Source: Aphrocallistes beatrix (taxonomy: Eukaryota; Porifera; Hexactinellida; Sceptrulophora; Aphrocallistidae). From it: a DNA stretch of 64,000 nucleotides. Under the pieces are notes generated by a model. The model was not told where the DNA came from. It did not search any database and worked only from the letters and a program-made list of their open reading frames with translations. A program made the translations under genes and the position numbers. The stretch lies in the NCBI GenBank assembly GCA_963281255.1, contig OY725492.1, positions 2,341,696 through 2,405,695 on the forward strand. Direction: 5' to 3'. Every line of letters starts with the position of its first letter. Positions within the stretch are counted from its first letter, which is position 1. Below, piece by piece: positions 2,389 through 57,850 of this stretch.

Positions 2389-2743
2389 CAACAGTCCTCT
2401 ATATCTTTTATAATCCAATGGAATTCAAATGTCTGAATAATTAATTGGTCCTCTTTAACACATTAAGTGACGACCACAAGTCTAGAACTAGATTTTAATA
2501 CACTTTATATACAGTGAAGATTGGATATAACGACAAATCGCAAATAGCGACCATTTTTCCTTGCCCAGAGTGAAATCCTACTTGACTGCATACAAAAAAC
2601 ATCGAAAATAACGACAATCCGAATAACGATAAATCGAAAATAACGACACATTTATTGTGCCCGGTGGCCTAAAAATGAATCGACCTCACGGAGGGTTAAA
2701 CGAGCTTTAGCTCCAAACGAAAGTAGAAGTTAATGTTTTAATC

Positions 2744-2986
2744 TCCGCTGACTTTCTTCTATGGGGCATTGCTCAACGTGCAGAAATTGCTGGTGCAGAC
2801 GTCACATTTGACGACTTTGTGGCAATATATGATGAAGTCCTAACCGGTGCTGCAGCTGCAGGTCAAGTTGTAGATAATTTACTAGATACTGTTCTGCCTT
2901 CTAATGAAGCAGCTGACGAGGAGAGTTGTAATGAGGAATGTGTAGTTCAACGTGTACCAAAGTTCAGGGAGGCAGTGGAGGATTAG
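2744..2986 (+). pseudogene. C-terminal fragment of Tigger-type transposase (probable)
   Basis: An 80-codon open stretch without an ATG reads an acidic, helical sequence (SADFLLWGIAQRAEIAG, then a run rich in D and E, ending REAVED-stop). Acidic tails of this kind follow the DDE domain in Tigger transposases. Its place inside Tigger-like TIRs supports this. The DDE domain itself is gone, so the call rests on context and style. Confidence 0.45.
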
Positions 2987-3048
2987 AGACAGCTCTGTTG
3001 TACCTGCGTTCCACCAAAAACTCAGACGTCCACTGTCAAGCTGTATTA

Positions 3049-3768
3049 CAGGGTGTGGAATAAGTTCTGCCACAAGCTTCATTAGGTATAAAATTTCTTA
3101 TACTCAAACAATCTTAGTTATTATGGTTCTTAGAGATTGTAATTCGAATATTTTCAATGATTTTAAAAGATTTTTCAATTCTATGACTTAGAAATGTGTT
3201 TTGTATGGTGAGTTTTGAGAAAAAAAAATGTGTCCTGCCACGCAGCGAAAATCGCGAATCAGGGCCCACTGCTTCTGTAAAAAATGTCTTCATAATCGAT
3301 GTCCCATGACGATTTAGCACCTGGTAGCTTTCATTCGCCATAGAAATATTTCATGAATCCACTGAATTCGTTATCAGAAACGAGAAAAAGTTATTCAGTC
3401 GCAGTTCAAATTGAAATCTGATCCAATTGGTCTTCAAAATGCACTGATCTGAACATCTTATATCTACAAATTTAGAGTGTTCGAGGAAAGTGTGTGAGCT
3501 AATTTTTCCTAGAATTTGAAGACTCTGGGAAGATAACTTGAAAAGCAGTGGGCCCTGATTCACGATTTTCGGTGCGGACCAGGACACATTTTTTTTTTCT
3601 CAAAATTCACCATACAAAACACATTTCTAAGTCATAGAATCGAAAAACTTTTAAAATCATTGAGGATATTCGAATTACAATCTCTAAGGACCATAATAAC
3701 TAAGATCGTTTGAGTATAAGAAATTTTATACCTAATGAAGCTTGTGGCAGAACTTATTCCCCACCCTG
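3049..3768. mobile_element. Non-autonomous derivative of the 40661-43614 element
   Basis: A 720-bp element flanked by TA, with long TIRs beginning CAGGGTG, then aagttctgccacaagctt and a TTAGGTATAAAATTT block. The same TIRs, with subterminal blocks around TCAGGGCCCACTGCTT, bound the 2.95-kb gene-bearing element at 40661-43614. There is no gene inside. It sits within the Tigger remnant. Confidence 0.85.
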
Positions 3769-4045
3769 TAAATGCTCAGGAATACTGCATAGATACACAG
3801 CTTAGTCTCCTGTAAAAGAGAACAATTACCAGCTATTTCAAGCCCACATAAAGTACATTAAAATAATTATTCAAATCATATACATCACCATATCATATAT
3901 CATATACTATTGTGTTTGTTACATTTTGGCGGGTATACTAAGCGTATATTGTGTGTGTGACCCTAAGATCGGATATAGTGACAGATCGCAAATAACGACA
4001 TTTTTCTCTTGCCCGATGGGACGTCGTTATATCCAATCTTCACTG

Positions 4046-4780
4046 TATATCATAATTAATGAAAAACATAGAACAAAGGTATGAAAATAAAATCTTGTTC
4101 TAAAATGTGTAGAAATAAATTCTCAACTCGATCATTCAAGCCAATGCAATAATCAATGTAAAAGCATATCCTCTTTGAGCATTTCATTGTATGCCTATAA
4201 AATGTCCGGTTTGGGAATTTAATCAGCCATCTTGTGCAATTATATTTCAGACCGAAAAATAAACATATAATTATCCCATAATCCGTTAAACTCCAATCAG
4301 AGGGAAGTTAATCCTTCCATCAATTAAATGATTGAATATTCTATGTTTGAATAGGAAATTCATCAAAACTCATCAGAATAATTAATGACCCACGCTTGGC
4401 ATTTCATTTTCGAAAGCAACAAAAAATGTACAAGGCGGATATGACTGTGGGAAATACTGTAGTTGTATAAATTATGAAATTTTCAGGATACTGTCATTAT
4501 AATAACAAGTGCAATCATCAGACGGGTCATATATACATATAATAATGGAGAATAATGGTTATCCTGCAATCGGAGATAAATTCCTTCTTTAGAAGGTGAT
4601 TCATAAGCATTCGACAAATCAAATCCCAACTTTATAAATAATTGCAATTTGGCAAAAAGGTAACCCAAATATGCACGGATATCAGCGTTAAATAATATTG
4701 CAGGAGCAAAATCTCTAAATCGGTATCCATATCCCTGACGCTGCCATCTACCAAGCATTAAAAAAATTTAACATATTGAT
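4046..4780. other. Unrecognised stretch with one open frame
   Basis: The minus strand is open for 91 codons at 4483-4758. The frame contains YGYRFRDFAPA and an AYLGYLFAKLQLF segment, with a hydrophobic C-terminus. I do not recognise it, and no splice sites or TE ends mark it out. It may be a decayed TE fragment or chance. Confidence 0.3.
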
Positions 4781-4940
4781 CTGAAAATATAATATTCGAA
4801 ATCTGCAACCCTAAAACCCCATGTCAACCATTGGAAGTAAGTCTCTAGCGTATTTAAGAGATTTGTTCACTTTCTCAGTACAAACTATTTGTTTACTATT
4901 TTTACATAACAATTGTAAACAAAAGTAATCAAATAATTTA

Positions 4941-10329: not shown

Positions 10330-11987
10330 TCTATATTGGAACGGCTAAGGTCACAAGTTGTTTCCTTATTTCAGACTGGGTTTTCAGCGAGTGATATTTT
10401 GAAAAGGATGAAAAACGAAAATATCAATAGGATGTTCGTTTATAGAAAAATTTAGCGGTTCAAGGAGACGCAAAGTATCATTGATATCAAAAGCCCTTCT
10501 TCGGCGTGTCGGACCTGAAATCCAAGAAAATATTATTTTACCAGATGAGAAAATATTCACTATTGAAGAGGTTATATATTCACAAAATGATAGGATCCTA
10601 GCCAAAACATCCCACACTATCCCGGAAAAGGATAAATTCATTGATAGAGTCCAAAAACCATTATCTGTGATGGTATGGGGGGGAATTTCAGCAAATTCAC
10701 GTACGAATTTGGTGTTCGTGCCACAGGGTGGAAAAATTAATGGGAAAATTTATTTAGATTTGATTTTTGAAGAGGAAATTAAGTGTGCTGGACGTAAGCT
10801 GTTCAAAAACTATCCTTGGATATTTCAACAGGATTCTGCCCCAGCTCACGGAGCTAATCTAACGCAGGAATGGTTACGGGGTCAAAAAGATTTCAATAGT
10901 AAAAACGAATGGCCACCATCAAGTCCTCATTTTAACCCGTTGGGCTATTCCATATGGGCGAATTTAGAAGCAAGGGCATGTTCATTTCCTCACAAGAGTA
11001 TTCGGTCTTTAAGGTGACAGGCCTTCAAATTTTGAAAAAAATTGCCAAATCCAAATATATTGTAATCTAGTTTTGATTGCATTCTAGGAGCTCTAAATAA
11101 ACCGATATTGAGATATTTTGTCAATCGGATTATTATTTTTGTACTTATAGCCAAATCTAGTCTTTTTCATTCATAATCTATTAATTAAAATTTTTAAAAC
11201 TATCAATTGGCGGACATCCGTTCGATCACCCTCAGTGGCGGTGACAGGGTATGGCGCGGTAGGGTGACCGCCCCACCAGCCAAACATCTCGCCCCACCTC
11301 CGGTGCGGCGAGATTTATTTATTTTTTATTTAATTTTTTATTTTTAGTCAAAAATTCTGATATTATGTATGTATACACCGGTACGATGCTGTTATGCCCA
11401 TGATTAATTGCTACAGCTACTCACATGACAGAAATGTCGGGATGTAATTGCGAAACTGACTGTATGTTCATCTCTTTGAAAATACTGCGCAATATTTCAT
11501 GTCTTGCATGTTCATGCAGACGAACATGCCTGATGAACATGCAATCAGATCCGCATGTCGCATATGCCACGAGGTATCTTTATCCGTACACGGCGCTTAC
11601 TGTTTTCTATGCACACACCATTGTAATTTGCATTCTAAGTAACTTGTAAGGATAACTTATAAAATTTATGTGGGTATGAGCGTATGACTAAAATTTATAT
11701 AAAAAATGTTGAATAACTACGGGAATTTCAAGTGTCTCAGCGATTTTGATAAACAAAGGGAAATTGATTCGCCCCATCGGAAATCGGCCGCCCACGCTTC
11801 GCCCCACCAGGGTTTTGAGGCTGGCGCTGCCCCTGATCACCCTAACTCAAAAAATATTCACATTTTAAAGGAAGCATTAAAGATAGAGTGGGATAGAATG
11901 CCGCAAGAGGAGCTACGAAATTCAGCAATGTCCTTTAGAAAGAGAATGCAGTGGGTTGTTGACAAGAAGGGTGGGTATATCGAATGA
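10330..11987 (+). pseudogene. Mariner DD37D-type transposase, dead
   Basis: Before 10480 the frame reads SQVVSLFQTGFSASDILKRM, an N-terminal helix-turn-helix. The main open frame (10481-11017) has the first catalytic Asp in PDEKIFTIEE, VMVWGGISA, the second Asp in FQQDSAPAHGA, and WPPSSP. The last block reads SPHFNPLGYS where the family has SPDLNPxDYS, so the expected third Asp of the DD37D set is Gly and the upstream Asp is His. The C-terminus (LKEALKIEWDRMPQEELR to GGYIE-stop, to 11987) follows the hAT MITE at 11233-11835. The linker between the DNA-binding and catalytic parts is shorter than usual, and the reading frame changes near 10470. The copy cannot be active. Confidence 0.85.
11233..11835. 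mobile_element. hAT-type MITE with 8-bp target duplication
   Basis: It starts CAGTGGCGG and ends GCCCCTG. The flanks are identical 8-bp copies of ATCACCCT (11225-11232, 11836-11843). Ends and 8-bp duplication indicate a non-autonomous hAT. GC-rich subterminal blocks (CGCCCCACC) are repeated in inverse orientation. It is inserted in the mariner transposase region. Confidence 0.9.
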
Positions 11988-27190: not shown

Positions 27191-28513
27191 GGTCATTTCA
27201 AAAGTACTGATCACTATTGATTTTTGACAGCTAGTGTATATCGAATGTACCAATTAATATAATCCAGATAGCATTACCCATTCTCTCCTAATATCTAAAA
27301 GAATTTTTAAGATAGCATAAGTATTTTTCTTATAATCATCATTTCAATCTTGTCAGTTTTGGCTACTTATACATTATGGCTTCAAAATCGTCAATTATTG
27401 AGCAAGAGCAAAGGGCGTATATCAAGTTTCGTTCACTGCTAAAAGATTCGAACAGGAACATCCACAATGATCTCGTGGAAGTTTGTGGAGATCAAGTACT
27501 TGCTTATTCCACGGTTAGAAGATGGGCTCGACTATTTCGAGAGTGAAGAGACAGCATTGAAGATGAGCCTCGGACTGGTAGGCCTAAATCTGCAACCTGT
27601 GAACCCTCAATTGAGTTGGTTGGTGAATTTCTTCGAAATGACCCTTGCTGCTCTATTGGAGAGATTTCTTAGTATACGGATATCTCAACGGGAAGTATTT
27701 ACCGCATTCTGAAGGAAGATCTCGGAGTAAGGAAGGTTTGCGCTCGGCGGGTGCCGTATTTGCTGTCAGAGGCCCGGATGAAACAGAGGGTAGAATGTTG
27801 TGAAAATCTTCTACATTACGAAAAATTTGATGCAAGGCGACTCTATGAGAAAGTAACCATAGATTAAACTTGGATTTACTATTCACAACCTAAATCCAAG
27901 GAAAAATCTAAGTGTTGGCTGCATCCGGGCGAACCCCGACCTAAAAGACCGCGTCCAGATTTCCGTGCCAAGAAGGTAATGTACGCAATTGCATTTGACG
28001 CCTACGGCCCAGTTGCTCAAGTTTGCGTTCCGAAGGGCCAGGATGTTACTGGAGACTTTTATTGCACTAATGTGCTCGCAGAAATCAGTAAACACTACAT
28101 AGAGCGTCGGCCGAGAACTGGTCCTCGTGGAATACAACTTCTACATGATAATGCCAGTAGCCATAAAACTAAACAAGTCGCCGCATACATCAAGGATATA
28201 GGGATGAAAACACTGAATCACCCTCCCTATTCCCCTGACCTAAGTCCTTGTGACTTCTGGTTGTTTTCAAAGCTGAAAAGTCATCTCTCTGATAAGGAGT
28301 TCACTAGCCGAATGGAGATCGGAATCGCCGTTCATAAGTACCTGAAATCGATCCCACAGACGGAGTATAAAAAGTCATTTCGCTGCTGGGTAGACCGTAT
28401 AAAGGAGTGTATTCGCGTCAAGGGGGACTATTTCGAGAATATGTAATTAAATAACACATCAGTCGTTGCTTAATATCAAATTGGCGGGGGTGATCAGTAC
28501 TTTTGAAATGACC
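27191..28513 (+). mobile_element. Full-length mariner element
   Basis: TIRs GGTCATTTCAAAAGTACTGA and complement, next to TA, bound 1323 bp, the normal size of a mariner. One transposase frame lies on the plus strand. Confidence 0.92.
27376..28446 (+). pseudogene. Mariner (DD34D) transposase, three in-frame stops
   Basis: A single reading frame of 357 codons including stop spans the whole gene with no frameshift. The N-terminus (MASKSSIIEQEQRAYIKFR to RRWARLFRE, DEPRTGRPKS) is the paired helix-turn-helix region. The catalytic part has the first Asp in VTID-stop-TWIYY, the second in LLHDNASSH, and PPYSPDLSPCDFWLF. The last Asp (CDF) is 34 residues after the second, the DD34D spacing. All three Asp are kept. 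Stops are TGA at 27544, TAG at 27670 and TAA at 27865, each one base from a sense codon usual at that site. This is the youngest-looking transposase in the window. It runs antisense to OGDH. Confidence 0.92.
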
Positions 28514-40648: not shown

Positions 40649-40660
40649 TAGTACTATGTA

Positions 40661-43614
40661 TAGGGTGGCCCATAAGTTCTGTCCCAAGCTTTATTAGGTA
40701 TAAAATTTCTTATACTCAAACAATATTAGTTATTATTTTCTTTAGAGATTGTAATTCGAATATTCTCAATGACTTCAAAAGATTTTTCGAGTCTAAGACC
40801 AGGAACTATGTTTTGTATTGTGAGTTTTGTCGAGAAAAAATGTGTCCTGACTCGCAGTGAAAAACGAGAATCAGGGCCCACTGCTTTTCAAATTATCTTT
40901 CTAGTCTCTAAATTCTAGGACAAATTAGCTCTCACATTTTCCTCGAACACTCTAAATTTGTAGAAATATAGGACGTTTAGATCAGTGTATATTGAGAACC
41001 ATTTGGATCAGATTTTTAGTGATGTGAAAAAAAGTGCCATTTTTGGTGATTTTGCAAAATGTACCTAATTTGAACTCGTTAAATAATAACTTTATCTCGT
41101 TTCTGATAAAGCATTCAATGGATTTGTGAAATATTTCCATGATGAATGAAAGGTATCTGGTGCCAAATCGACATGGAACATCGATTACACTGGCCAACAA
41201 CATTTTCTGCAATTGCTGATAAGTTGAGACTATTTCTAGGGTATATACTGAGTTCGAAAATGGCACTAGTTCTGGTCAATTGGCTCTACTTTTTGTGATA
41301 TTGTAAAATTATGTGTTTTTCAGTATCCGTGAATCGTGTTCACTGATAGTATATAGTATGTATGTATTACCTTATAACTAGAATTGAACGTACGTAATAA
41401 GCAGATAATTTGAGATATAATATGATCTGAATACTTATCAATCATGAACGAACGTTCTCTTATACGATTTCCTCTTGTGAGGTTCCTGGGCGCAATCACG
41501 CATAAGGCTCCAGCAGTAATCTGACAACATGTGAGCGTCCCATCGTCCTTGGTACCGTTCCTCCATAGTCCTGATGTCTTGGTGGAATCGCTCGCCCTGT
41601 TCTTCGCTTAAATCACCAAGATTTTCAGGGAATCTCTCTAAATGGCTATAGAGGTAGTGAAGCTTTATGCTCATTCTGGTTCCCAGACTGTGGAAGTTCT
41701 TGAGCATGCCTTCGACCAGATTCTGGTAGTTAGCTACTTTGGAGTTGCCTAGAAATCCCTTTACAACATCGACAAAGGAATACCACGCGGCAGCCTCTAC
41801 CCCAGTCATGTGTGAGGCGAAATCTTCATCTTTTATCAGTTTTCTGATTTGTGGCCCATCAAAAATTCCTGCCTCAAGTTTTTCGCTACTCAGACCAGGA
41901 TATACTGAGCAGAGGTAGCTGAAACAGGTACCATCTTTGTTCAATGCCTTTACGAATTGTTTCATCAGTCCCAACTTGATATGTAGTGGGGGTAGGATGA
42001 TACGGTCACGGCTAACTAGTGGCTCGTTAACGATATTCTTTTCCCCCACGGGAAGCTCTTGACGAACGGACCAGTTCTTCTTTTCCCAGTGCACCTCATC
42101 CGCTCTGCTGTCCCACAAAGAAAGCATGGGTATTTAGTGTAACCACTTTGCTGTCCTAACAGAATGTTGACCATTTTCAAGTCTACACACGCGATCCAGT
42201 TATGTTCATCATAACACAGCTTTTGTAGGACCATCTATACAGTTGCGTAGTGCTCTTTCAAGATTACTGAATGGCCGATCGGAACACAGGCAAACTTGTT
42301 ACCATTATGCAGCAACACACACTTTAAACTCCGTTTAGAGCTGTCGATAAATAAACGCCACTCATTCGGATTGTATTGGGACAGTCCCATCGCTGAGAGA
42401 AGTCCTGGGATGTTATTACAAAACACGAAATCGCCTTCTTTACTGAAATAGCGGATAAGTTCTTCGTCTCTGCGTCGGTAATAAGTTATCATAGCTTCAC
42501 TGTGGAGAACATGGTGTTCACTGAGACGGGAAGCCAGGATCTCTGAAGCATCTTTTGACAAGCCTAAGACTCTCACTAAGTCGTTGAGCTGCCCCTGTGT
42601 GAAAGGCTCCGCTTTACTTATCTGTAACGACTCAATACAGCTATTGCTGCTGTAAGTGCTGTCCGACGATTCATCAATAGCCTGAGTAAACGCAGTATCA
42701 GGAACTAGATCAGGTAAGGAAGTAAAAACAGGCACCTGAATTTCGCTGCAGTGTGGAATTGGCCGTCTTGCAGAATCTATGTCAGGATATTGCCACGAAT
42801 TCTTTTTCGTTCGGTTCCATCCAGACATGTTAACCATGCAGAAGTAACAGTCATCGTGATGGTTCTTGGGCTCTCGCCAAACCATTGGTATCCCAAACTT
42901 CATGGATTTGGCTTTTCCTTGTGTCCATAAGCGGAGGGTTTCTGTGCAATACTTGCACACTTTGTGAGTGCTCCATGACTTATCCTTATCGCCTAACTTC
43001 ATACCAAAGTAAGCCTGATAAGCTTTTTTGGTGACATCTCTAACGATGTTCCTTTGCCATATATTCACCACAAATATATCAAAAGACATCAGGACCATTG
43101 AGGCAACAACGTCTAATGCGCTTTGAATCCATGAAAGGTTCTAATATGCTGGAAATAGAGTGAACAAATAGATGTAAATGTTGTAATAAACCTACAAATC
43201 GCATATATTTGTATATATTATCTCAAAATTTAAGGTTGTGTAATATCTAGAAAACTAGAGCCAATTCAGCAAAACTAAAAGTATTTTCGGATTCAGCAAC
43301 CCCGATATATCCCAAAAACGCTCCAACAATCTGAGCCAAGAGACAAAAATATTTTTTGTTGGCCTGTGTTACTATAGAGACATTTTTACAGAAGCAGTGA
43401 CCCTGATTCTCGAATTTCGCTGCGAGCCAGGACACATATTCTTTCCACAAACTCACCATACAAAACACAGTTCCAGTTCTTAAACTCGAAAAATCTTATA
43501 AAATCATTGAGAATATTTGAATTACAATCTCTAAAGACCATAATAACTAAGACTGTTTGAGTATAAAAATTTTATACCTAATGAAGCTTGGGACAGAACT
43601 TATGGGCCACCCTG
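40661..43614 (-). mobile_element. Long-TIR DNA element carrying orphan gene family 1
   Basis: The left end AGGGTGGCCCATAAGTTCTG and right end (its complement, closing ACCCTG at 43614) lie next to TA. Arms continue for about 240 bp (TCCCAAGCTT-ATTAGGTATAAA, then TCAGGG-CC-ACTGCTT region). Length is 2954 bp. Internal blocks at 40980-41190 recur in the gene-less derivatives at 3049-3768 and 48206-48926. It starts 12 bp after the previous element ends, and both genes point the same way. Confidence 0.88.
41438..43132 (-). pseudogene. Orphan family 1 protein, putative transposase, nearly full length
   Basis: From ATG at 43132 the minus strand reads MDSKRIRRCCLNGPDVF, then YICGEYMAKE in that frame. 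It then shifts to the long frame 43098-42235: KAYQAYFGMKLGDKDKSWST, CKYCTETL, FGIPMVWREPKNHHDDCYFC, a Ser-rich linker, FTQGQLNDLVRVLGLSKDA, NPNEWRLFIDSSKRSLK. One in-frame TAG (42235) precedes YDEHNWIACVDLKMVNILLG and YTKYPCFLC, and one frame change near 42130 precedes DEVHWEKKNW. The long C-terminal frame has LPPLHIKLGLMKQFVKAL, AWYSFVDVVKGFLGN, LHYLYSHLERFPENLG and GERFHQDIRTMEERYQGRWD. Length (about 565 codons) and order match a multi-copy family I remember from arthropods and cnidarians, without a named domain. Asp (FIDSS), Asp (VDLK), CxxC, then Glu (GERFH) is an order seen in DDE transposases with a Cys insert; this role is inferred. Confidence 0.75.
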
Positions 43615-43624
43615 TATATAGATA

Positions 43625-48205: not shown

Positions 48206-48926
48206 AAGGTGTTGTATAAAATTTCTTATACTCAAACGATCTTAGTTATTATGATCCTTCCTTAGAGATTGTAATTCGAATATTTTCAATTATTTTAAAA
48301 GATTTTTCGATTCTAAGACTTAGAAAGGTGCTTTATTTGGCGAGTATTGAGAAAAAAATTGTGTCCTGCCACGCAGCGAAAATCGTGAATCAGGGCCCAC
48401 CCAAGTTATCTTCTCAGAGTCTTCAAATTCTCGGAAAAATTAGCACACACATTTTCCTCGAACACTCTAAATTTGTAGAAATATAGGATGTTCAGATCAG
48501 TGCATTTTGAAGACCAATTGGATCAGATTTTTTTGTGATGTGAAATTGCCATTTTGGGGGATTTTGCAAAATCTACCTAATTTGAACTACGAATGAACAA
48601 CTTTTTCTCGTTTCTGATAATGTATTCAGTGGATTTATGAAATATTTCTATGGTGAATGAAAGGTATCTGGTGCTAAATCGTCATGAGACATCGATTATG
48701 CATACATTTTTTACAGAAGCAGTGGGCCCTGATTCGCGATTTTCGCTGCGTGCAGGATACATTTTTTTCTCAAAACTCGCCATACGAAACATATTTCTAA
48801 GTCTTAGAATCGAAAAATCTTTTAAAATCATTGAAAATATTCGAATTAGAATATCTAAGGATCATAATAACTAAATCGTTTGAATATAAGAAATTTTATA
48901 CCTAACGAAGCTTGTAACAGAACTTA
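48206..48926. mobile_element. Second gene-less derivative of the 40661-43614 element
   Basis: Starts GTATAAAATTTCTTATACTC and ends with the complement plus ACGAAGCTTGTAACAGAACTT. The internal block ATTGGATCAGATTTTT and those around it (48480-48700) match 40980-41190. The outermost CAGGGTG bases are lost at both ends. Confidence 0.85.
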
Positions 48927-55672: not shown

Positions 55673-55819
55673 AACAACTTTGAAATCTAATAAAAATTGA
55701 TTAAGAGATAAAAACAATATGACCCCAAAAGAATTTGGGCATTTTTTTTGAATCGCCCTGTATATATACTCTATCTTGAATCACACTACCATTGAACCAT
55801 AATAATATGATTTCCACTT

Positions 55820-57120
55820 CTAGATTCAATGGTTTACGCGTTATTAGACAATTTATCACTTTGGTAATTTGTCTGATAACTCGTAAACCATTGAATCTTA
55901 AGCAAGCGACCCAAACTTTTTCTGTAGAGCAAAAAAATGTCATCGTTCAAATGGATGAGATTCATATAAAATTAGGTATAGCCTACAAAGGAGGCAAATT
56001 ATTGGGTTCTAGTGTAAATTCAGATGATCCTACTAAAACAGTATTTGCTATCATGTTTCTAGTCTACATAAAAAAATGGTCATGTGTTGTACTTTTATTG
56101 CCATTCGCATCTAATTCTGGTATTAAATCTTGCATTCGCGACATTGAGTTATGTAGATTGCTTGTTCAGGTAATCACAACAGACAACTATCCCCTTAATG
56201 TCAAACTTTTGAAACTATTTTCTCCTTTTGGTAAGCCTCGAGTGTGTCACTATTGTGAAATTACGAGTAATATACCTCTTTTTCCTACATTTGATTTGTA
56301 CATATTCTATCAACTATTAGAAATAAATTACTAAACCAAAAATCTGATAATAAAGCCTTCGTTTACCCTTGCTTAGAAAATTTTGTATCAATTCGTGTTC
56401 TTATCTCTTAAAGCAATGTTCTGCCTGTTTTCGAGACGTCCAAATTCTTCATAATTCTGAAAAACAAGTTTCGCCCGCGTTTAACATTTAAATAATGTAA
56501 TCCTTCAATTCTCGAGCGTCAAAATGTCAAACTTGTCTTAAAAGTATTTCATGAATCAACAATAGCTGCTTTAACTATTCAAAATTGTCAACGTTGTGCC
56601 GATTTAAAGACTGATACTTCTGATTTTATCCAAATCTTTATATGTTTATGGAAAATGTTTAATATAAATATGCTATTCAAACATATTCGTCTAAATGATC
56701 CTCTATCCACCCCTTTAATATCAATTTTGCGAAATTTGAAGCTTTTCATATTTGAAACGAGTTGCCTATTGGTTAGATGCTTGGCAATCACTCCCTGGAA
56801 AAGTTGGCAAATTAAGTAACTAGACATTAACAAGTTTTAGACATGCTTGCCTTGCCTTGCCCCAAATTACCAATCATTTCACAAAAATTGTGGGGTTTCC
56901 TACCACATAACTTCTTTCCTTCAGACAGACACCACTTTGGTCTATATCGCATGATGTCAGGTGCTAATTATCATGTTTCCTATCTTCAAAACTTAGAAAC
57001 AGAGCGCAGTCTAAAGTTTTCAAATAATTTAAAAATTTTCTCCAGTCATTCAGATTCTAGTGTTAGCTTGCAAGATTTTATTCTGTCTTTTTCATCTTTA
57101 CGGCAATGGCTACAATTTAC
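55820..57120 (+). pseudogene. P-element-like (THAP9-type) transposase, decayed
   Basis: The first open piece (to 56334) reads FSVEQKNVIVQMDEIHIKLG, IAYKGGKLLGSSVNSDDPTK, TVFAIMFLVYIKKWSCV and VQVITTDNYPLNVKLLKLFS. Later pieces read TSDFIQIFICLWKMFNIN, KHIRLNDPLSTPLI, and GLYRMMSGANYHVSYLQNLE. These follow P-type transposases: DExxIKxxxxYxxGKxxG with the first Asp, TDNxxxNxxLFxxF with the second, then RLNDPL and GRYRQLSGGNYHVS. The N-terminal THAP finger is not seen. An inverted pair at 55834-55896 (ATTCAATGGTTTACG) overlaps its start. Multiple stops are present. Confidence 0.65.
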
Positions 57121-57850
57121 GTCAATGGCTACCACCAGATCTGTAAAGAGGATAATAGATTCCGGAGCGAATCAGCCTTCTATAATAGTGAGCTTCGGCG
57201 CGAAAAATTCAAGGCTCGATAACGCAGAGTATTCTAGTGATACTTCTGGTGTGGTCGGATTGAAATCGGGTCCTGCTGTATATTTCCCAAAGGAGCAAGA
57301 TAGTCTATGCTTACCATCGGTGATGCACAAGTCTTTAAGTGGTCACTCTATTCAAAAGCAGTGGTTTGAAGATTATTCGTGACTTAAGATGTGTGACGAC
57401 AGGAAATCATTATATTACATAATCTGTCACTGAGCACTTGAGAATCGCAGTATATAACATTCGGATATAACCTGTTGCTCTAACAATCCTTGGAAGAACA
57501 AGGTCTCTGGGTTTTCCAAATTCAAAAAGGGGGAAGCTGGGCTGGACAAGCATGTGAATAGTGGAATTCAAAAGATGGTAGTGTATGCTATGACAGCGCG
57601 AAGCATGCCGCCCAACAAAAGGTTAAGTTAGATGAGTGGGTAAATGCGAAATTTGAGTTTTCAAGGACTGGTCTGAAGGCTATCTTTGAAGCCGTGAGGT
57701 TGTGTGGGCACCAGTGTTTCCCGATGCAGGATTACAGAGACGAAGATGTTTCAGCCAATTTCAACAGCATTGTGAATGTGATAGCATGGAGATATCGAGC
57801 TCAGTCAATTATTGTTTAGAGAAATAACTGGTTCGCTCGATGCAAGGGTA
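57121..57850 (+). pseudogene. hAT-type (ZMYM1/DUF4371-like) transposase N-terminal part
   Basis: Open pieces read a basic start (TTRSVKRIIDSGANQPS), PAVYFPKEQDSLCLPS and SIQKQWFEDYS-stop-LKMCDDRKSLYYIICH. Next come GFSKFKKGEAGLDKHVNSG, then FEFSRTGLKAIFEAVRLCGH, FPMQDYRDEDVSANFNSIVN. This is the order of the TTF-type zinc finger (W-x-x-WL, CFxC, GFSxWKxA, HExS) and the start of the RNase H domain (FLxRQGLALRGHxDE-x-x-NFxxLL) in ZMYM1-like hAT proteins. The Cys positions of the finger are mostly lost and there are several breaks. The catalytic C-terminus is not seen. Confidence 0.6.

Follow-up and report, generated by a model that had tools for sequence, protein, structure and literature searches.

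A putative CACTA-like transposon duplicating TTA/TAA, nested in a long-TIR MITE of Aphrocallistes beatrix

At positions 40661-43614 of the 64,000-nt stretch of the Aphrocallistes beatrix contig OY725492.1 analysed here (the window), a gene of a multi-copy, uncharacterised protein family, family 1, lies between long inverted arms, and the question arises whether gene and arms form one mobile element. The initial annotation assumed that they do. It described a single 2.95-kb transposon, with TIRs of about 240 bp and TA flanks, and a gene belonging to a candidate new transposase family. The outer anatomy on which this reading was built could be reproduced. The outer borders are at 40661 and 43614, each with an adjoining TA (40659-40660 on the left and 43615-43616 on the right), and the inverted arms (about 40661-40886 and about 43392-43614) are 88% alike over 233 bp. 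The only recognisable gene between them is indeed that of family 1, located on the minus strand.

The gene is contained in an inner element at 41188-43368 (2181 bp, minus strand), which has its own termini and is flanked by TTA on both sides (41185-41187 and 43369-43371, placed by empty sites and by comparison of ends). What lies outside is a left part (40661-41187), the last letters of which are the target TTA, and a right part (43369-43614), the first letters of which are the second TTA. A virtual empty site was built from the window flanks and searched in all sequences at hand. In the sequences examined, 13 distinct places have the outer portions joined directly, with no gene in between; two of them are inside the window, and the sequence runs uninterrupted through the insertion point (with respect to this count, L020 and L023 are repeats of L049 and L052, and L006 matched on one side only). 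As far as the insertion point, 12 of the 13 read CATCGATTA, and six continue with TAGAGACA. When compared to the empty MITE copies, the right flank in the window (43369-43374) is longer by up to three letters next to the TTA, for which we have no explanation beyond local variation. One MITE copy without family 1 is found at 3049-3768 of the window (720 bp); it has both ends and the TA flanks, and its inside is shorter by about 50 bp than that of the nested copy. Another one, at 48214-48926, is degenerate, and its outermost ends are not recognisable. A second case of an empty site was detected by eye: the target of the copy in L048 is uninterrupted in the flank of L046.

It is near certain from these data that two elements are nested, a MITE of about 770 bp being interrupted by a transposon of 2.2 kb, and the long TIRs and the TA at 40661-43614 are the ends of the MITE, not of the family-1 gene. 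The reading as one transposon of 2.95 kb, in which family 1 would act on the 240-bp TIRs and the TA, is in line with the exact outer borders, the TA and the one recognisable gene between the arms. However, it is refuted because empty sites exist, and the gene has other ends and another duplication; we give it practically no credence.

The other copies of the gene point in the same direction. We inspected the 8-kb surroundings of 20 other family-1 matches (loci L039-L058) with an element query which starts at 40653 and in which the outer portions correspond to 1-535 and 2721-2972. The inner part (about 530 to 2720 of the query) is shared by 18 of these loci, while L053 and L057 are diverged. 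The check proposed in the initial annotation, whether family-1 genes are bounded by the outer TIRs and TA, had a negative outcome: the gene is inside the outer TIRs in none of the 20 loci (L049 is interrupted and visible on one side only). In four loci (L042, L045, L049 and L052) a MITE copy is present as a neighbour, its outer portions being joined to each other beside the gene and not around it. In the genome search (100.5 Mb, 28 contigs) the outer TIR is very common, since all 40 scored places, taken from 1552 first-look candidates, match. Only four of these 40 have a listed match at a distance of 4 kb or less, namely the window itself, two further family-1 places and L062, a locus of a distant sister family, which also speaks against a single transposon.

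With respect to its type, the outer element resembles Tc1/mariner-type MITEs in its TA flanks, its CAGGGTG...-type ends and the lack of a recognised gene; unlike them, it has long TIRs (about 235 bp of about 770 bp). Judged by eye, the open frames at 27868-28446 and 10412-11017 of the window resemble pieces of mariner and Tc1-like transposases, and the open frames at 55780-57382 resemble a P-element transposase.

The ends of the inner element are CACTGGCCAACA.../...GGCCTGTG, next to the TTA target duplication. In the orientation of the gene, the element starts with CACAGGCCAACAAA and finishes with ...GTTGGCCAGTG, so that the 3' end read inward is CACTGGCCAACAAC. The two ends pair imperfectly over about 100 bp. 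In the window the 5' terminal inverted repeat (gene orientation) is located at 43241-43368 on the minus strand and the 3' terminal inverted repeat at 41188-41306 on the plus strand, with the inner limits being approximate; in the copy L040, about 100 bp of the 5' terminal inverted repeat pairs with the other end.

Both inner ends were found in 16 copies, namely in the window and in 15 of the 20 loci, and all of them have CAC...GTG termini. A perfect 3-bp duplication is present in 15 of these 16 copies; it is TTA/TAA in 14 copies and CTA in L048, and the sole exception is L055, where the duplication does not match. The match in L047 says little, since a TAA/TTA repeat surrounds this copy and would produce a match in any event. 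The TA duplication of Tc1/mariner elements is absent from the gene's own ends, which have TTA/TAA instead. A single inner end was found in L043, L044 and L049, and none of the main-type ends in L053 and L057. In the diverged subfamilies (about 40-65% protein identity), ends were located by eye from the inverted repeats. In this way, CAC...GTG ends were found in L032 and L034 (each with TAA/TAA) and in L053 (TTA/TTA), while two of three duplication letters agree in L030, no match is seen in L031, and one end only was found in L037 and L038. Altogether, four subfamilies have the family-1 gene and the CAC...GTG type of ends in common (three by eye). The connection of family 1 to mobility, which the initial annotation had based on the exact outer borders, is thus upheld on other grounds: the gene is bounded not by the outer TIRs, but by ends of another kind, as a rule with a TTA/TAA duplication.

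Genome-wide, these ends and the gene occur together. When only strong matches are considered (90% or more for the 3' end, 92% or more for the 5' end), a family-1 match is present within 4 kb of all 19 3' ends and of 20 of the 22 5' ends. One of the two remaining 5' ends belongs to an interrupted copy, 6 kb off, and the other is a lone end (C3:6649478). In addition, there are three weak 5'-end matches (73-77%; C20:1649115, C2:1420192 and C10:3208935) with no listed family-1 match nearby, which are possibly gene-free or older relatives. The lone end and the weak matches could be taken as a hint that family 1 is a passenger gene and that the element is moved by another enzyme, the more so as the transposase role of family 1 is deduced from sequence. 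Against this stand the nearly constant company of strong ends and gene, its conservation together with CAC...GTG ends in four subfamilies, and the conserved DDE-like order of residues. We therefore regard a passenger gene as very unlikely.

In the window, the reading frame of the gene is not intact: it changes near residue 30 and again near residue 340, and it contains an in-frame TAG. Of the 568 residues, 1-30 are encoded in their own frame at 43043-43132 (detected by tblastn), 33-342, with the TAG, at 42115-43044, and 340-568, with the stop codon, at 41438-42127, all on the minus strand. An uninterrupted frame of 568 aa with 99-100% identity exists in three copies (L039, L040 and L043). The elements in L039 and L040, which are located on different contigs, are 99.91% identical over 2195 bp. 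Such near-identical copies at different sites mean that the family moved recently, and they suggest that the activity of the element is recent, perhaps even current. Between the subfamilies, pS is saturated (0.91-0.94) and pN is 0.22-0.37, which shows that the family-1 protein is under purifying selection.

The characteristic residues of family 1 follow each other in the order Asp266, Asp320, CxxC, His, HxxxxH and Glu518. In the window, the codons of the three candidate catalytic residues are at 42343-42345 (Asp266, in WRLFIDSS), 42181-42183 (Asp320, in CVDLK) and 41591-41593 (Glu518, in QGERFHQD), the CxxC (Cys339, Cys342) is at 42115-42126 and the HxxxxH (His496, His501) at 41642-41659, all on the minus strand. 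We scored these seven residues and His388 in 29 loci. All eight are kept in 22 loci, and one site differs in four (L031, L032, L035 and L056); the remaining three (L038, L062 and L053) are covered in part, L053 having one change as well. A distant family, represented by L061 (25% identity; BLASTP E 3e-17, hhalign probability 98.9), also keeps all eight, and down to this relative the order Asp-Asp-CxxC-Glu read in the initial annotation holds. The L061 gene (586-2199, minus strand) and L062 constitute a second family, 25% identical to family 1. Judging from these residues, family 1 is likely to be a DDE transposase, and presumably it has an RNase H fold. Two pieces from the window, folded as single sequences, had a mean pLDDT of 49.4 and 43.0, too poor to speak for or against such a fold. 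Cys pairs are abundant in the N-terminal third of the protein, which may serve for DNA binding.

Database searches yielded little. A Pfam search with the intact 568-aa protein yielded no match at E 10, the search of PDB sequences gave only a chance-level match (E 1.2), and the best in PHROGs was at E 0.17. A zf-AD match in L030, with an E of 6.7, counts for nothing. Among viral contigs, the protein search resulted in two candidate stretches and the alignment in 29, none of which was confirmed, and the DNA pattern in 0; none of 100 candidate stretches in bacterial and archaeal contigs was confirmed, and the searches of plasmids and phages gave no relatives. The motifs of the protein and the terminus had no match in the literature texts searched. 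Because family 1 escapes the Pfam models, it might be mistaken for an uncharacterised gene of the host; the present analysis assigns this multi-copy protein a likely function and describes the anatomy of its element.

To which group of DDE transposases could family 1 belong? The choice of TTA/TAA as a target is typical of PIF/Harbinger, and the 3-bp TTA/TAA duplications, found in 14 of the 16 copies, would suit a divergent transposase of this type. However, family 1 has no match to DDE_Tnp_4 (PF13359), the PIF/Harbinger profile, and this profile works here, as is evident from 122 matches elsewhere in the genome. Further, the CAC...GTG ends and the CxxC and HxxxxH before the Glu speak against Harbinger, the termini and motifs of which we take to be different. 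A PIF/Harbinger origin of family 1 is thus quite improbable in our opinion.

These ends and motifs correspond to those of another group, the CACTA/EnSpm-Mirage-Chapaev-Transib (CMCT) clade. In the sections of Kojima 2025 (PMC12730594) that we rely on, the clade is characterised by CAC...GTG ends, a 3-bp duplication, and CxxC and H(3-4)H before the Glu; for EnSpm/CACTA, sections of the same paper and of PMC4158355 describe an Asp-Asp-Glu triad in which a C(2)C and an H(3-4)H follow the second Asp and precede the Glu. Family 1 has 5'-CAC..GTG-3' termini, a 3-bp target duplication (15 of 16 copies, and the empty sites), and C339/C342 and H496/H501 between Asp320 and Glu518. Anatomy and motifs thus fit the known CACTA/EnSpm-Transib clade and do not establish the candidate new transposase family of the initial annotation. 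We infer that family 1 is kin to the CMCT clade and most like CACTA/EnSpm, and its element is likely to be a CACTA-like transposon duplicating TTA/TAA. With EnSpm/CACTA (Transposase_21, PF02992) it shares the CAC...GTG ends, the 3-bp duplication and the Asp-Asp-Glu order together with the C(2)C and H(3-4)H motifs. Unlike EnSpm/CACTA, its ends go on as CACTGG/CACAGG and not as CACTA, its duplications are almost all TTA/TAA, a 568-aa gene is contained in 2.2 kb, and there is no Pfam match. We rate family 1 as a probable divergent CACTA-like lineage.

The Pfam models of clade members (Transposase_21, DUF1258, DUF1280 and RAG1) do not match family 1 at E 10. In general, a Pfam match detects members of the clade, it does not define them. 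When the genome was searched with PF02992 (CACTA) and PF06869 (Mirage), nothing was found, and these are weak tests, with no positive control matching either. The search with PF06918 (Chapaev) gave one weak match (E 0.0043, below the cut-off) and that with PF12940 (RAG1) gave 19 weak matches at E <=1, all away from family 1. One of the latter, a 284-aa piece in L063 (448-1299, minus strand), is a Transib (6pqn, E 1.2e-11) and was used as a yardstick. In an alignment of family 1 and L061, the 65 columns at the end align weakly with Transib/RAG1-like segments (hhalign E 0.0089, probability 4.5%), whereby both His and the Glu are matched. The score of 17.6 was reached by none of 200 column shuffles (maximum 17.3, mean 9.7). 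Since this region was picked after the resemblance had been noticed, and since the family-1 profile has no match to the whole L063 piece (284 aa; hhalign probability 0.6%), the alignment is support and not proof. The weak likeness to Transib/RAG1 (6pqn; RAG1L 6b40) consists in the HxxxxH followed by LSEExxE. It does not extend over the longer L063 piece, and the duplication of family 1 is 3 bp long. The target duplication of Transib is 5 bp, and this length, which we take to be a criterion for Transib/RAG1, separates family 1 from them.

The failure of Pfam to match, the empty searches with PF02992 and PF06869, and the location of the PF06918 and PF12940 matches elsewhere could also be explained if family 1 formed a new superfamily of its own among the DDE transposases, separate from the CACTA/Transib clade. 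This we consider unlikely, because family 1 bears the published signature of the clade, along with CAC...GTG ends and a duplication of 3 bp, and because its last block shows a weak alignment to Transib/RAG1-like segments. Returning to the placement inside the clade, we tentatively raise the idea, which is possible but not our main expectation, that family 1 and its relatives are a separate CMCT lineage, compact, targeting TTA/TAA and invisible to Pfam, with several subfamilies and the 25%-identical sister family. If true, CACTA-type ends and a Harbinger-like target choice would be linked in one lineage. The target preference joins features that are as a rule ascribed to different superfamilies.

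Nested elements, with family 1 as a CMCT-type DDE transposase of the inner one, are in our view a highly probable explanation of the locus as a whole. A Tc1/mariner-type MITE (about 770 bp, TIRs of about 235 bp, TA) was hit by a DNA transposon of the autonomous type, 2.2 kb in length. Family 1 is the gene of this transposon, very probably its DDE transposase as already supposed in the initial annotation, and not the transposase of the 240-bp TIRs, which belong to the MITE. According to this model, the family-1 protein would attach to the CAC[A/T]GGCCAACA ends, excise the element and insert it where TTA/TAA has been cut in a staggered manner, and 3-bp duplications would result. Such a catalytic role and such a cut-and-paste route are what the residues and the duplications lead us to expect.

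The locus also calls for caution, since long TIRs surrounding a gene may belong to another element. A comparable arrangement is seen in L053, where a second diverged family-1 copy (2408-4797) is enclosed by another TA-flanked TIR pair, which is very common (40 places scored out of 907 first-look candidates). As an example of a family-1 gene having a TA-flanked TIR pair, L053 was rejected, since this TIR, too, is a frequent repeat and the gene has ends of its own with TTA further inside (by eye). Since a diverged copy lies within this common TIR pair, such repeats seem to be landing sites.
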